A DNA stretch of 33,656 bases from Actinomycetes bacterium (GTDB lineage Bacteria; Actinomycetota; Acidimicrobiia; Acidimicrobiales; SZUA-35), in assembly GCA_024280015.1 (NCBI GenBank), contig JAJRQY010000053.1, forward strand, positions 1 to 33,656. Direction: 5' to 3'. Every line of letters begins with the position of its first letter. The stretch's first letter is position 1. Below are positions 3,431 through 29,549 of this stretch, piece after piece. The position numbers and the translations under genes were made by a program. Under the pieces are notes generated by a model. The model made no database searches. It was given only the letters and a program-made list of their open reading frames with translations, and was not told the DNA's origin.

Positions 3431-3442
3431 AGGTGGAGGCTA
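3431..3442 (-). promoter_or_regulatory. Leaderless -10 box of nth
   Basis: TAGCCT on the minus strand (3442-3437), then CCACCT and the ATG. The 6-nt spacer places the predicted transcription start at the start codon. No clear -35 is visible. Confidence 0.6.
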
Positions 3443-3490
3443 GTGGAGTTGGGCAAGAAAGTCGGAGGTAGCCCACGACAACCGGCCTAC

Positions 3491-3504
3491 TAGGCTGGCA
3501 GAGA
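3491..3504 (+). promoter_or_regulatory. Leaderless -10 box of mshD
   Basis: TAGGCT (3491-3496) followed by 8 nt and ATG at 3505. No ribosome site lies between them. Confidence 0.55.
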
Positions 3505-5146: not shown

Positions 5147-5159
5147 GGTGACTACCTTA
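5147..5159 (-). promoter_or_regulatory. Leaderless -10 box of the VIT1/CCC1 gene
   Basis: TAAGGT (5159-5154) then AGTCACC and ATG, a 7-nt spacer. Confidence 0.5.
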
Positions 5160-5183
5160 TTGGATGACCCTTGCTTTAGGCCC

Positions 5184-5196
5184 TAGCCTTGCCTCC
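5184..5196 (+). promoter_or_regulatory. Leaderless -10 box of rlmN
   Basis: TAGCCT (5184-5189) then TGCCTCC and ATG at 5197. This selects 5197 over the upstream in-frame ATG at 5164. Confidence 0.6.
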
Positions 5197-6234
5197 ATGA
5201 CTTCGCCTTGGGACCTTGACCGGGACGCCCTTACCGACCTGTTGAGCGATCAGCCTCGATACCGGGTGGACCAGGTCTGGAAAGGGCTCTATGACCAGGG
5301 TGTCGCTCCATCGGCGATCTCCACCCTGCCTCGGGCCTTGCGTGAACGGTTGGCAACAGACCTCACACCAGCCTTAGACCTGACTACGCGCTCGATCTCC
5401 GAGGACGAGCTGACGGTCAAGAGTTTGTGGAATATGTCTGGCGACGCCGCCATCGAAACCGTGCTGATGCACTATCCCGACCGCTCAACCATCTGTGTTT
5501 CCAGTCAGGCGGGCTGCGCCATGGCTTGCGGGTTCTGCGCCACTGGCCAGGCTGGCTATCAGCGCAACCTGACCGTTGGCGAGATCCTGGAGCAAGTGGT
5601 GCTGGCCAGAAGCGAAGCACTGCCTCGCCGATTGTCCAACATCGTGTTTATGGGGATGGGCGAGCCCTTCGCTAACTATGACCGGGTCATGGAAGCCATC
5701 CGACGGATTATCGCTGACCTAGGCATTGGTGCCCGCAAGATCACGGTTTCAACGGTCGGGCTGGTTCCCCAGATACGCCGCTTTGCCAACGAAGGCCTAC
5801 AAGTTGGACTTGCGGTCTCATTGCATGCCGCAAACAATGAGCTGCGAACCAGCCTGGTTCCGGTCAACAAGAAGCATCCAATCGAAGCGATCGTTGACGC
5901 CTCGCGCCAGTTTCGAGACAAGACTGGACGTCGGGTGAGCTTCGAGTGGGCCATGATCGACGGTGTTAACGATCGGACCAGCGATGCCAAGGAGCTGGCC
6001 AAGGTCGCTCGAGAAGCCGCTGCTCATGTCAATCTCATTCCCCTCAATCCGACACCGGGCTGGCCAACCGTTGGCAGCCCGGCGAGCCGGATCAGAGATT
6101 TTGCCAACGAGCTGGATTCTCTTGGCGTCAATGTGACCGTTCGGCGCAATCGCGGTAACGAAATCGATGCAGCTTGTGGGCAGCTTCGGGCGAACCAGGG
6201 AGCAACACCGGTCAAGCTTCGACCAAAACGCTAG
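5197..6234 (+). CDS. rlmN: 23S rRNA (adenine-C2)-methyltransferase RlmN
   Basis: Radical-SAM enzyme that methylates C2 of A2503 in 23S rRNA (and A37 in some tRNAs). With the ATG at 5197 the protein has 345 residues and starts MTSPWDLDRDALTDLL. An ATG at 5164 is in frame but lies upstream of the TAGCCT box. The radical-SAM CX3CX2C cluster is C107, C111 and C114 (GCAMACGFC). The catalytic methyl-carrier region near the C-terminus is NEIDAACGQL, with Cys about residue 327. FMGMGEPFANYDRV and GLAVSLHAANNELR are typical of the family. All key cysteines are present. The related Cfr shares the fold, but the housekeeping context and N-terminus support RlmN. Confidence 0.95.
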   Translation: MTSPWDLDRDALTDLLSDQPRYRVDQVWKGLYDQGVAPSAISTLPRALRERLATDLTPALDLTTRSISEDELTVKSLWNMSGDAAIETVLMHYPDRSTICVSSQAGCAMACGFCATGQAGYQRNLTVGEILEQVVLARSEALPRRLSNIVFMGMGEPFANYDRVMEAIRRIIADLGIGARKITVSTVGLVPQIRRFANEGLQVGLAVSLHAANNELRTSLVPVNKKHPIEAIVDASRQFRDKTGRRVSFEWAMIDGVNDRTSDAKELAKVAREAAAHVNLIPLNPTPGWPTVGSPASRIRDFANELDSLGVNVTVRRNRGNEIDAACGQLRANQGATPVKLRPKR

Positions 6235-7126: not shown

Positions 7127-7660
7127 CTACGCGCTGACGTTCGCCCGAGCTAGCGGGCCGATAACCCGTTCGATCAGCTCATCGACCTGGCCTACCATCT
7201 TGCGGTATTGACGCTTGCCGCGTTTGTACGGATCGCTAACATCCCATTCCGAAGAGAGATATTCCGCGCCGTCGCGGTATTGGAGCGCTTCCAATAGCCG
7301 TTCAACGGAATATCCGTCACGGATCAACGAAGCGGCCTGGAGCAAGGGCAAGGTCTTGGCGAAGACCTCGGGAAACGAGATCGCTATTTCCTGGACGTGT
7401 CGGCCTTCCATCGTCAAGATCAGCTCGGCTGCTCCCAGTGTCTCTGCTTCAAGCTGGTTGCTCCGGTGAGCCGCGGTCGAAATGTCTTTCTCCCCGAGGA
7501 TCTCGCCCAGTTCCTTAGGCATCGTCTTGCCGCTCTCCAGCAACCCAGCGGACCGAAACATGACCGTTTCCTCGCCAAAACGAGCGCGGGCAAGCAGCTC
7601 GGCTGTCGGGCTACGACAGATATTGGCAGTACAAACAAAGAGCACTCGGCGAGGTTCCAC
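7127..7660 (-). CDS. Low-molecular-weight protein-tyrosine phosphatase
   Basis: Cytoplasmic phosphatase of 177 residues. The P-loop CTANICRSP at residues 10-18 gives nucleophile C10 and R16, and the general-acid region is DVSDPYKRG near residue 142. The start is GTG at 7660, six nt after a TACTGT box, with no ribosome site. In polysaccharide systems such enzymes (Wzb, Etp) dephosphorylate the tyrosine cluster of BY-kinases. A BY-kinase occurs about 18 kb away at 25342, so a functional link is plausible but is inference. Arsenate reductase of the same fold is a less likely alternative. It is divergent from the menaquinone methyltransferase, with only 32 bp between the start codons. Confidence 0.87.
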   Translation of the reverse strand: MEPRRVLFVCTANICRSPTAELLARARFGEETVMFRSAGLLESGKTMPKELGEILGEKDISTAAHRSNQLEAETLGAAELILTMEGRHVQEIAISFPEVFAKTLPLLQAASLIRDGYSVERLLEALQYRDGAEYLSSEWDVSDPYKRGKRQYRKMVGQVDELIERVIGPLARANVSA

Positions 7661-7672
7661 CCGAACACAGTA
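7661..7672 (-). promoter_or_regulatory. Leaderless -10 box of the phosphatase gene
   Basis: TACTGT (7672-7667) then GTTCGG and GTG at 7660. It lies back-to-back with the promoter at 7680-7692. Confidence 0.5.
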
Positions 7673-7679
7673 GTGCCCC

Positions 7680-7692
7680 TAGCCTGTCAGGT
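7680..7692 (+). promoter_or_regulatory. Leaderless -10 box of the UbiE/MenG gene
   Basis: TAGCCT (7680-7685) then GTCAGGT and ATG at 7693, a 7-nt spacer. Confidence 0.6.
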
Positions 7693-8391
7693 ATGAGCAT
7701 GCCCAGCGAGTATCTTCCTGAAGGCGATGAGAAGCGGACCGCGGTCCGTTCACTCTTTGATTCCATCGCTCCCAGATATGACCTTGTGAATCGGATCATG
7801 ACCTTCCGTATGGATGTCGGCTGGCGAAAGAAGACAATCCAATCTCTCCAGCTCCAGAGCCCGTCAACTGTGCTTGATCTGGCTTGTGGAACCGGAGACT
7901 TTTGCCGTGAATTGAATAGGGCGGGACACCAGGCACTTGGCGTTGACTTGTCGCTTGGCATGCTCCAAGCAGCCAAGACCGATGCTCCCCTGCTGCAAGG
8001 TGACCTTCTGTTGCTCCCCATCGCCGATCAATCCGTTGATGCCGCTGTCTGTGGCTTCGCCCTTCGTAACCTGGTGGATTTGCAGACATTCTTTGATGAG
8101 CTGGCGCGGGTCGTTCGTCCCGGTGGCCGAATTGGACTCCTTGATGTTTCCCAGCCAGACAACCGCTTTGTGGCGTTTGGCCATGGCATCTATTTCAACA
8201 AGGTCGTTCCTTTTGTTGGCGGCCTGCTGTCGGACAAGAACGCCTACAGCTACCTGCCTCGCTCGGTGTCCTACCTTCCCCCAACCGAACAGATGTTGGA
8301 GCTCTTGTCCCAAGCCGGTTTCCAACAGCAGCAACGTCGTCAGTTGACTGGCGGACTGTCCCAACTTTTCACCGGTGTTCGTCGGACCTGA
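7693..8391 (+). CDS. menG: Demethylmenaquinone methyltransferase (UbiE/MenG)
   Basis: SAM-dependent C-methyltransferase acting on demethylmenaquinone, the last step of menaquinone synthesis; UbiE homologues can also act in ubiquinone synthesis, but actinobacteria use menaquinone. The 232 residues are typical. Motifs are LFDSIAPRYDLVNRIMTF near the N-terminus, VLDLACGTGDF (SAM motif I), FALRNLVD, VVRPGGRIGLLDVSQP and AYSYLPRSVSYLPP. It is preceded by a TAGCCT box 7 nt before the ATG. A bidirectional hairpin follows at 8400-8423. Confidence 0.93.
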   Translation: MSMPSEYLPEGDEKRTAVRSLFDSIAPRYDLVNRIMTFRMDVGWRKKTIQSLQLQSPSTVLDLACGTGDFCRELNRAGHQALGVDLSLGMLQAAKTDAPLLQGDLLLLPIADQSVDAAVCGFALRNLVDLQTFFDELARVVRPGGRIGLLDVSQPDNRFVAFGHGIYFNKVVPFVGGLLSDKNAYSYLPRSVSYLPPTEQMLELLSQAGFQQQQRRQLTGGLSQLFTGVRRT

Positions 8392-8454: not shown

Positions 8455-8793
8455 CTACGCCTCGGCTTCAGCACCCTTGGAGCGCCACACCAGGATTGCT
8501 CCACCACTGACGAGGACTGCGCCAATCGCGGCCAGTCCTGCAGCGTCGGTTCCAGTAACGGGAAGCTGCTGCTTGCCCTTAACTTCAACACCGGGAAGTC
8601 CGGCAGACTCAACCACTGCTGGATCTGTTGATTCCTTGGGTAGGACGTCAGGATCTACCGAGTCCGGGCTCTCAGACTTGACCTTGTCGCAGTTGTCCGG
8701 ATAGCTACATCCGTCCTCTGCCGCGCCAGCGATACCGACGAATCCGCCAGTTAGACCGGCTACCAATGTTGCTGCCACGATCATTTTTCTCAT
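8455..8793 (-). CDS. Small LPXTG cell-wall-anchored protein
   Basis: Protein of 112 residues built as a sortase substrate. The N-terminus is a signal peptide (about residues 1-24, ending AGA-AE). A short acidic, proline-rich extracellular segment with two cysteines (DGCSYPDNC) follows, then LPVTG at residues 77-81, a hydrophobic helix and a short tail RSKGAEAEA. Sortase would cut in LPVTG and link the protein to peptidoglycan. The mature part is only about 50 residues with no recognised domain. The ATG has a ribosome site (AAGGGTG), and a normal promoter lies upstream. The tail is less basic than usual, with one Arg and one Lys. No sortase gene is seen in the window. Confidence 0.8.
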   Translation of the reverse strand: MRKMIVAATLVAGLTGGFVGIAGAAEDGCSYPDNCDKVKSESPDSVDPDVLPKESTDPAVVESAGLPGVEVKGKQQLPVTGTDAAGLAAIGAVLVSGGAILVWRSKGAEAEA

Positions 8794-27004: not shown

Positions 27005-27230
27005 CTGCCAAGTGAGTAGTCATGGCCCAACCAGGTGGCGAACCAGCGAGCACAATAACCTACCGCCAGCAAGAAGTGGTCTACCCTTTGCAAGTCGAAA
27101 CTTCTAACATGACCGCCGGATCTTCACGGCTTGAGTCATGCGCAGGAGGAACTGGGCCAGATAGTTCACCGAATACGATGTTCGCCCATCGACCTCGTAC
27201 CCACCCCTGCCAGACTGATGACACGCAAGA

Positions 27231-27251
27231 CATGGGCTGCCCCAGCCCATG
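27231..27251 (+). promoter_or_regulatory. 9-bp hairpin just before the dehydrogenase ribosome site
   Basis: CATGGGCTG-CCC-CAGCCCATG is a perfect 9-bp stem with a 3-nt loop. It ends 3 nt before AAGGAG (27255-27260) and 15 nt before the ATG at 27267. It could be an operator or an RNA element affecting initiation. The gene itself is now broken. Confidence 0.45.
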
Positions 27252-28290
27252 AACAAGGAGTTGGTGATGAACCAACCTCTTCGGACAAGAGAACAACGCG
27301 TCGCGATTGTCGGACAAGGGTACGTCGGGCTTCCCGTCGCCATTCGCGCCGTTGAAGCTGGCTTCGACGTCGTCGGTGTCCGACTCCCAGATTGCGGAGG
27401 CCCTTGAACTCGGCCGGTACAAACCGACCCGTGATCCCGCAGATCTCGCGGACTTCGACATTGCCGTCATCACGGTTCCCACTCCCCTGCGAGATGGCGC
27501 ACCCGACATGTCCAACATCGAGAGTGCGTCTCGGACCGTTGCCACGCACATTCCGTCCAGATTCGACAGTCATTCTTGAATCAATGACCTACCTGGGCAC
27601 CACCGAGGAGTTTGTTGCTCCAATCCTGGAAGAGATTTCCGGCCTGGAAGCGGGCTCAGACTTTCATCTTGGCTTCTCGCCCGACTGGGATTGATCCCGG
27701 CAACGTGACATGGGACTTTCGTCGGACCCCCAAAACTATGTCTGGTATCGACGAGGGCATCGCTAGCGGTCATCCAGGACTTCTATGACCACCTCGTTGA
27801 CACGATAGTGGTCACTAGAAGTACCAGAGAAGCCGAACTAGCCGAACTGGTGGAAAACAGTTTCCGTGACGTCAACATCGCCCTCGTCAACCAGCCCGCC
27901 GTCAGCTCTCGGGCGCTCGGAATCGATTTCTGGAATGTCGTCGAAGATGCTTCGACCAAACCGTTCGGATTCATGCCCTTCTACCCGGGACCCGGAGTCG
28001 GCGGGCACTGCCTTCCAGTCGATCCATCCTACCTCTCTTGGCAGTTCCAACGCGAACTCGGAACCGTCAGCCGCCTCGTCAAGATTGCCGATGACGTCAG
28101 CAACGGAATGTCTGCCGAAGTGGTCCGACCGGTACAGGTCGGCCTGAACGAACTTGAGGGACTTCTGGCCCTGGGAGTGGATGTTTCGGTCCATGATTCT
28201 TGGGTTGGTGCCCATCAAGTCGATGCAACCACCGAACGAACTGAGCTGACCAGTGAGGCCCTGAGCGGCTCCGACACCGTTGTAATCGTG

Positions 28291-28294
28291 ACTG
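28291..28294. repeat. Left target-site duplication of the IS
   Basis: ACTG, directly before the left inverted repeat; the same ACTG follows the right end at 29604-29607. A 4-bp duplication fits the IS407 group of IS3. Confidence 0.8.
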
Positions 28295-28371
28295 TGGGAT
28301 GCCCCCGATATTAGGTCCACGCGGAACTTGGATCGGGATGGTTCTACGACACTGACACTAGCTCGACGGCC

Positions 28372-29208
28372 TCACCTCCGACAGACACTATTGACAGTCT
28401 CATGGACACAATCACAGCGGGCCGCGTACTCATCCGGAGTGGCATACCCCAACGACGAATGCCGATGGAACTCGTTGTACCCGCGTTTCCAGTCACCAAT
28501 CAACACCCTGGCCTGGAGGATCGTGTCGAACTGATGCTGGTTCAGACACTCGTCACGAACCCTGTTATTGAACGACTCGATGAACCCGTTCCGCCACGGC
28601 TCACCAGGAGGAACAAACAGAATCTTCAGTTTCTTCTCGCAGTACTCCGCCAACACATCAGCAATGAACTCCGGCCCGTTATCGAGCCTCAGCATGAGCG
28701 GCAAACCCCGCAACGTGATCACGGCATCCAACGCAGCGACGACACCCTCAGCAGTGATCGAACGCTCAACAAGGTCAGTCAACGATTCTCTAGTGTGCTC
28801 GTCAACCATCGAGAAAATCTTGATCCGACGGTGATCAGATGTCGCGTCGAACTGGAAATCAGCAGCCCACACCACGTTCGCCGCGTCCGCTTTCACAACG
28901 GTCTTCGACCGCTTGAGAGGCTTCTTGCGGCGCCTGCGATGCTTGACCTGTAGTCCTTCTTCGCGCCACACGCGATGCACCCGTTTCTTGTTGATGAGAT
29001 GGCCTTCGGCCTTCAGATCAGCCCACGCGCGCCGGTATCCCTTGCGAGCGTTGCGTTCGAGGCCGACCCACTTGTGGAGCCAATCGCGGAGCCAACGATC
29101 AGGATCATCGGGTGTGTCGGCTAACGGTTTTCGCCGGAACGTTGAGCGGGTCATTCCCGTTACCCGACATGCAGCGCGTTGCGACATGCCCATCTTCGCG
29201 ATGAGCAT
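28372..29208 (-). CDS. IS3-family transposase OrfB (integrase-core domain)
   Basis: Catalytic part of the transposase, 278 residues from an internal ATG but probably produced as a -1 frameshift OrfAB fusion from 29549. An HTH-like start (SQRAACRVTGMTRSTFRR) and an HTH_21-like region (GYRRAWADLKAEGHLINKKRVHRVWREEGLQ) precede the rve domain. The DDE residues are in VVWAADFQFD, LRLDNGPEF and NGFIESFNNRVRDECLN. The frame continues upstream of the ATG as LLDPTCRRRATD, matching the usual OrfB start in this group. No stops or gaps are seen, so it looks functional. Confidence 0.92.
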   Translation of the reverse strand: MLIAKMGMSQRAACRVTGMTRSTFRRKPLADTPDDPDRWLRDWLHKWVGLERNARKGYRRAWADLKAEGHLINKKRVHRVWREEGLQVKHRRRRKKPLKRSKTVVKADAANVVWAADFQFDATSDHRRIKIFSMVDEHTRESLTDLVERSITAEGVVAALDAVITLRGLPLMLRLDNGPEFIADVLAEYCEKKLKILFVPPGEPWRNGFIESFNNRVRDECLNQHQFDTILQARVLIGDWKRGYNEFHRHSSLGYATPDEYAARCDCVHETVNSVCRR

Positions 29209-29237
29209 GTCGGTCGCGCGTCGACGGCATGTCGGGT

Positions 29238-29549
29238 CTAGAAGTTTCCCTCAGCGATCTCCCGCAACCCGAGGATCTCGAGCTCTTTGTCGGCGACAAT
29301 CCGTTTGAGCTTGCCGTTCTGTTCTTTGAGCTGGCGGAGCTGTTTCGCCTCGTTGACGCTGACACCGCCGTAACGCTTGCGCCAGTTGTAGAGGGTCTGT
29401 AGGGAGATTCCGAGCTCGCGTGCGATCTGCTCGCTGGAGTGGCCCTGGCCGGCGAGTTGGTCGGCTTTGGCGAGTTCCCTGACGATCTGTTCCGGGGTGC
29501 GGTTTCTTCGTTTCTTAGTCACGTTGGTTGGTTCCTTTGACGCCCTCAT
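29238..29549 (-). CDS. IS3-family transposase OrfA (helix-turn-helix)
   Basis: DNA-binding part of the transposase, 103 residues. It has a HTH_8 or transposase_8 domain: RNRTPEQIVRELAKADQLAGQGHSSEQIARELGISLQTLYNWRKRYGG, followed by a leucine-zipper-like helix (LRQLKEQNGKLKRIVADKELEILGLREIAEGNF). Ending in EGNF with stop TAG at 29240-29238 is typical of the IS407 group. The last codons contain G GGA AAC (29250-29244), a canonical -1 slippery heptamer, from which the ribosome would enter orfB. Confidence 0.9.
   Translation of the reverse strand: MRASKEPTNVTKKRRNRTPEQIVRELAKADQLAGQGHSSEQIARELGISLQTLYNWRKRYGGVSVNEAKQLRQLKEQNGKLKRIVADKELEILGLREIAEGNF
29244..29250 (-). other. Programmed -1 frameshift site of the transposase
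   Basis: The heptamer GGGAAAC (X XXY YYZ form) sits in the OrfA frame as GAG GGA AAC, 3 nt before the TAG stop. Slipping -1 gives AEGN-LLDPTCRRR, joining OrfA to OrfB. Confidence 0.75.

Follow-up and report, generated by a model that had tools for sequence, protein, structure and literature searches.

The window analysed here, a stretch of 33,656 bp, belongs to an assembly of 4.8 Mb in 175 contigs and contains two genes, ptp and menG, that are read away from each other across a very short gap. An earlier sequence-only reading had reported this divergent arrangement with start codons at GTG 7660 for the phosphatase and ATG 7693 for menG, and we recovered the same coordinates. The genes, the gap and the putative promoter hexamers that it contains are listed below.

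7127 to 7660, minus strand: ptp, encoding a low-molecular-weight protein tyrosine phosphatase (Pfam PF01451 LMWPc, E 3.4e-21), GTG start at 7660
7661 to 7692, no strand: ptp/menG divergent gap, 32 bp between the start codons
7667 to 7672, minus strand: TACTGT, putative -10 hexamer of ptp, offset -12, 6 nt before GTG 7660
7680 to 7685, plus strand: TAGCCT, putative -10 hexamer of menG, offset -13, 7 nt before ATG 7693
7693 to 8391, plus strand: menG/ubiE methyltransferase gene (Pfam PF01209, E 3.6e-42), ATG start at 7693

The GTG at position 7660 is the furthest-upstream ATG, GTG or TTG codon in the open frame of ptp, and menG contains a second in-frame ATG at 7699. menG is a menaquinone synthesis gene, and ptp is located near a polysaccharide region with Wzy_C, Wzz-like/AAA and glycosyltransferase genes; a function shared by the two does not appear evident.

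Both hexamers end 6-8 nt before the start codon, as is typical of the leaderless TANNNT promoters of Actinobacteria, which the two putative promoters also resemble in their ATG/GTG starts and in having no -35 motif. In M. tuberculosis, where TANNNT is described as occurring without a -35 motif, leaderless mRNAs make up 26% of the genes having a primary start (PMC3898074), and more than 20% of genes are given as leaderless in Actinobacteria (PMC3160421); the start sites considered here differ from those of M. tuberculosis in that they are assumed from the position of the box. Placed in this way, the starts of ptp and menG are 33 bp apart, the hexamers are separated by 7 bp, and each hexamer lies at about -20 to -26 relative to the assumed start of the other promoter. 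The -36 to -31 stretch of menG corresponds to positions 7657-7662 and covers the ptp start codon, while the equivalent stretch of ptp corresponds to 7691-7696 and covers the menG start codon, which bears out the earlier claim that each -35 region falls on the start codon of the opposite gene. Given the usual footprint of RNA polymerase, two polymerases are sterically unlikely to be present together on sites this close. The geometry is therefore that of juxtaposed divergent promoters, i.e. two outward-facing promoters whose polymerase sites would overlap. Such closely juxtaposed divergent promoters are common in M. tuberculosis according to a figure legend (PMC3898074), and the ptp/menG pair is similar in that two close promoters point outward, here from a gap of 32 bp between the start codons.

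The boxes of ptp and menG exceed chance expectation, as judged from a sample of 58 stretches of the host genome that includes the window and comprises 868,443 bases (18%). Contigs were taken at number steps, the first 20 kb of each was used, and genes were called with a purpose-built codon model. When starts were chosen by coding signal only, using the first 38 stretches (596,387 bases), the TAnnnT motif peaked with 23 occurrences at -12 and 19 at -13 among 487 starts, as compared to 0-6 before the same starts at any single one of the 30 offsets between -45 and -16. In front of 6227 in-frame ATG/GTG codons inside genes, its rate at each offset from -12 to -14 was 0.05-0.11%. Across the full sample, and with nearby alternative starts allowed, 137 of 723 genes carry a box at -12 to -14, whereas each of eight decoy offset sets yielded 17-23 genes. 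The earlier statement that ptp and menG each have a TAnnnT box of their own holds, with TACTGT at -12 and TAGCCT at -13. The boxed genes amount to about a fifth of those sampled, which is similar to leaderless usage in Actinobacteria, and TAGCCT is the most frequent box among them (17/137).

The same 137 boxed promoters were profiled for a -35 element. Information content in the region 13-40 nt upstream of the box was 0.00-0.05 bit per position, and small signals (at most 0.16 bit) occurred only directly adjoining the box. A sigma-70 scan of positions 7400-7900 returned no promoter, where chance expectation is just 0.1, and a sigma-70 style promoter or -35 element for ptp/menG was consequently discarded on the basis of both searches. 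As no -35 motif is visible, the placement of the '-35' position over the start codon of the opposite gene would cost either promoter little.

The menG box recurs before orthologues of the gene. We examined 49 of 60 relatives, the 11 omitted being in part weak or partial matches and in part matched but unfetched (for example G047 and G055), and allowed menG to start anywhere between 45 nt before and 15 nt after the aligned first residue. Of the 31 same-family genomes, 26 have TAnnnT at -12 to -14, as do 9 of the 16 testable genomes from other families (two further genomes were untestable), and two of the five same-family misses (G003, G013) carry the motif at -15. Decoy offsets in the same family gave 13 matches at -21 to -23, 5 at -24 to -26, 4 at -18 to -20 and 0-2 elsewhere, the larger counts arising mostly because another in-frame ATG lies 6-12 nt further on and sees the same box; in other families they gave 0-1. 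For ptp the count was confined to the same family, the matches obtained outside it being weaker, and here a box at -12 to -14 precedes the gene in 7 of 14 testable genomes (three more were untestable; decoys 0-1). In the same-genus relative G001, ptp retains its GTG start and has TATTGT at -12. The box is thus missing at -12 to -14 from 7 of 14 testable ptp orthologues and from 12 of 47 testable menG orthologues, and several of the ptp misses seem, judging by the upstream sequence alone rather than by gene calls, to follow another gene closely and so may do without a separate promoter. Taken together, these data indicate that the predicted menG promoter is well supported and that the predicted ptp promoter is reasonably, if less strongly, supported. 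Combined with the position of the boxes and the geometry of the gap, their recurrence backs the earlier view that the putative promoters would be too close for simultaneous occupation by two polymerases.

The recurrence also bears on where translation begins. One or both of the true starts could lie elsewhere, at the menG ATG 7699 or at GTG codon 6 of ptp (7645), with transcription beginning inside the opposite gene, in which case the transcripts would overlap and the 32-bp layout would be incidental. Both codons exist and both were preferred by the coding-only caller; however, it is from 7693 and 7660 that the boxes have leaderless spacing, they recur at this spacing near the aligned starts in relatives, and no strong Shine-Dalgarno sequence, as judged by eye, precedes either start. 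We consider displaced starts very improbable.

The pairing of the two genes is not shared in the same way as their boxes. Within the flanks that were fetched, some of which end at contig ends, no relative contains an intact ptp divergently beside menG, and in six relatives ptp is located downstream of menG in convergent orientation. G001 is syntenic with the window over hisD-nth-mshD-VIT1-rlmN-maoC-ptp, but its ptp gene faces only a truncated 5' end of menG, 77 bp away, which comprises the promoter plus ten menG codons that run into a stop. The intact menG gene of G001 is located on another contig, C148, where it follows a relative of the O-antigen-ligase-like gene of the window (11143). The G001 configuration, with ptp facing a menG-type promoter, might be taken as weak conservation of the arrangement; a conserved ptp/menG pairing was nevertheless rejected, as it is represented by this remnant and by no intact divergent neighbour in the fetched flanks of relatives. 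The two copies of the menG 5' end in G001 match at 88% over 78 bp, consistent with a duplication in the G001 lineage, and G001 also holds twice a stretch with the neighbouring glycosyltransferase (89% over 596 bp). When the window is aligned to G001, both promoter ends are common to the two sequences and ~45 bp between them are missing in the window. In G008, relatives of window genes 10242 and 11143 are positioned between divergent ptp and menG genes. The order of ptp, the menG 5' end and then, further on, a glycosyltransferase occurs in both the window and the G001 assembly, and this speaks against the window being a chimeric join. In G001, the menG remnant with its promoter occupies positions ~1678-1755 of locus L080 (contig C106) and is preceded there by what resembles the remains of an O-antigen-ligase-like gene (3' end); the menG-type promoter may now serve the glycosyltransferase gene that comes next.

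Divergent genes with leaderless boxes on both sides are frequent in the host genome. Among the 120 adjacent divergent pairs of the 18% sample, 15 have both genes boxed and 43 only one of them, and the gap is at most 50 bp in 7 of the 15 doubly boxed pairs (24, 32, 35, 40, 41, 43 and 50 bp); eight decoy sets produced 0-1 doubly boxed pairs and none with a gap of 50 bp or less. Extrapolated from 7 in 18%, about 40 close doubly boxed pairs are expected genome-wide. Gaps are shorter in doubly boxed than in other divergent pairs (Mann-Whitney p = 0.002), to which start choice may contribute, as boxed upstream starts, when chosen, can shorten gaps. A non-random sample of 840 kb from seven same-family genomes, in which the G001 stretches and several contigs were picked for their menG or ptp content, contains 11 doubly boxed pairs among 105 divergent pairs, four of them no more than 50 bp apart, and one decoy set gave 0. 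Gaps of this size number only 11 over both samples (7 + 4). The other close doubly boxed pairs join genes from unrelated families, and the ptp/menG pair is a lineage-specific case of a known architecture that is common in its host genome.

The reading that we hold to be probable is that two pre-existing leaderless promoters were pushed together by rearrangement and fire mostly independently. The 32-bp gap would then consist of two complete minimal promoters pointing outward, each with a TAnnnT -10 hexamer and each initiating transcription at the start codon to yield a leaderless mRNA. Each promoter would be older than the pairing, with rearrangement and deletion in this lineage having joined ptp and menG until little besides the two promoters remained, and each would extend into the first codons of the other gene. 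At any instant polymerases at the two promoters would exclude each other sterically, and, as no -35 element is visible, both promoters are probably weak enough to allow mostly independent firing; the start sites, promoter strength, lack of coupling and order of rearrangement in this account are those that we infer.

The sequence-only reading had proposed that the overlap makes initiation at the two genes mutually exclusive or couples their regulation. The overlap would in this case act as a regulatory device in which a polymerase at one promoter blocks the other, such that ptp and menG alternate or keep a set ratio. The spacing of 33 bp between the assumed starts and the placement of upstream contacts over the start codon of the other gene are compatible with such a device, and in an E. 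coli bidirectional promoter, strengthening or activating one side represses the other (PMC12825309). However, neither the pairing nor its spacing is conserved within the genus, no common function of the two genes is apparent, and similarly close pairs are common and unite unrelated gene families. The gap itself (7661-7692) contains no inverted repeat with arms of at least 8, the sole one nearby being located in the first codons of menG, and a palindromic operator in the gap was dismissed for this reason. Moreover, basal activity is reported as too low for substantial competition at five bidirectional promoters of E. coli whose starts are separated by 10-23 bp, and clear competition appeared once one side was strengthened, with all changes but one (PMC12825309); these non-competing promoters differ from ptp/menG in polymerase and in spacing (10-23 bp). 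Mutual exclusion or coupling is thus not supported. Independence of ptp and menG is most likely and regulated exclusion unlikely, while competition is plausible if one side is strongly activated.

Transcription in divergent directions leaves negative supercoiling behind each polymerase, and the two promoters could on this basis ease each other's opening, which would result in mild co-activation. The geometry is suitable and the general physics of divergent transcription favours the effect, but no sequence feature sets mutual help apart from independent firing and the pairing is unconserved; we think it has a small chance of being correct. Closeness alone is not evidence of regulation, because the comparison within the genus finds both promoters where the genes are unpaired. 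The pair also shows how far a divergent gap can shrink if leaders are dispensable, and, should the boxes function as predicted, the family offers many pairs for testing at what point interference between minimal promoters sets in.

The ptp/menG pair can be compared with the bidirectional promoters that share a -10 element, described by Warman, Grainger and colleagues (PMC12825309, PMC10268837), which are similar in that steric exclusion is expected and divergent mRNAs are produced. The counts for this class cover start-to-start spacings of 7-25 bp (PMC10268837), with distances of 18, 10 and 23 bp being common (PMC12825309). In that class the -10 elements overlap or are shared and starts are 7-25 bp apart, whereas the hexamers of ptp and menG are separated by 7 bp and their assumed starts by 33 bp, a spacing that rules out membership. 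A full-text literature search combining bidirectional promoters, leaderless and mycobacteria returned only Vibrio work, and one combining Acidimicrobi and leaderless returned only work apparently on translation initiation signals and on sterol degradation; no wider absence is claimed from either.

Two further divergent pairs in the window, described earlier as a milder form of the same layout, were confirmed to have the reported gaps and boxes on both sides.

3431 to 3504, no strand: nth/mshD gap, 74 bp, boxes at -12 and -14
5147 to 5196, no strand: VIT1/rlmN gap, 50 bp, boxes at -13 and -13, rlmN ATG at 5197

The nth/mshD gap of G001 is also 74 bp, with the mshD-side box at -15. The first in-frame ATG of rlmN (5164) would leave a VIT1/rlmN gap of 17 bp, and the two genes are divergent within 200 bp at 10 of 30 VIT1 loci (our own included), from eight families. 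In G001 the VIT1/rlmN gap (L181) is 22 bp (AGGCTAGGCT), its hexamers share a TA and the assumed starts are 23 bp apart. A comparable arrangement is found at positions 8869-8892 of L090 (G000:C45), where a 24-bp gap with overlapping hexamers that share a TA (AAGATAGCTT) is flanked by an indigoidine-synthase-A-like gene and an amidase gene. Unlike ptp/menG, both of these fall within the range of the -10-sharing class. By box offsets, a G003 pair has a gap of 25 bp and hexamers that share a TA, and a G018 pair has a gap of 19 bp and hexamers that overlap by five bases, giving four gaps of 19-25 bp with overlapping -10 boxes, three of which share one TA (ANNNTANNNT).

These pairs raise the tentative idea that the leaderless genes of the clade let a divergent gap shrink until one shared hexamer pair serves both genes. 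It is conceivable, though we would not expect it, that in such pairs the leader, ribosome site and -35 element are all absent and initiation one way forbids the other. By the same tentative scheme, ptp/menG, with 7 bp between its boxes, might stand one step before this end state. If the scheme is true, the shared-hexamer pairs would constitute a natural test bed for polymerase competition in the absence of other elements.

A different short gap is seen at positions 14140-14174 of L113 (G000:C18), where 35 bp separate divergent DUF3097 and ABC-F-like genes and contain a perfect inverted repeat with 15-nt arms and a 3-nt centre. The palindrome carries two identical outward-facing TAGCCT boxes at -12. 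The DUF3097/ABC-F-like pair of G001 has a 36-bp gap and both boxes (the plus-strand one read by eye) in the absence of the palindrome, and a role of the latter as a selected operator is accordingly not supported; it may have originated by templated inversion of one arm.

Elsewhere in the window, a transposase pair with rve and HTH_Tnp_1 domains is located at 27166-29549, beside apparent pieces of a broken UDP-sugar dehydrogenase gene. Positions 8455-8793 encode a small protein that has no Pfam match; its N-terminus is signal-like and an LPVTG motif is followed by a hydrophobic stretch at the C-terminus, features that we take to be sortase-substrate-like.
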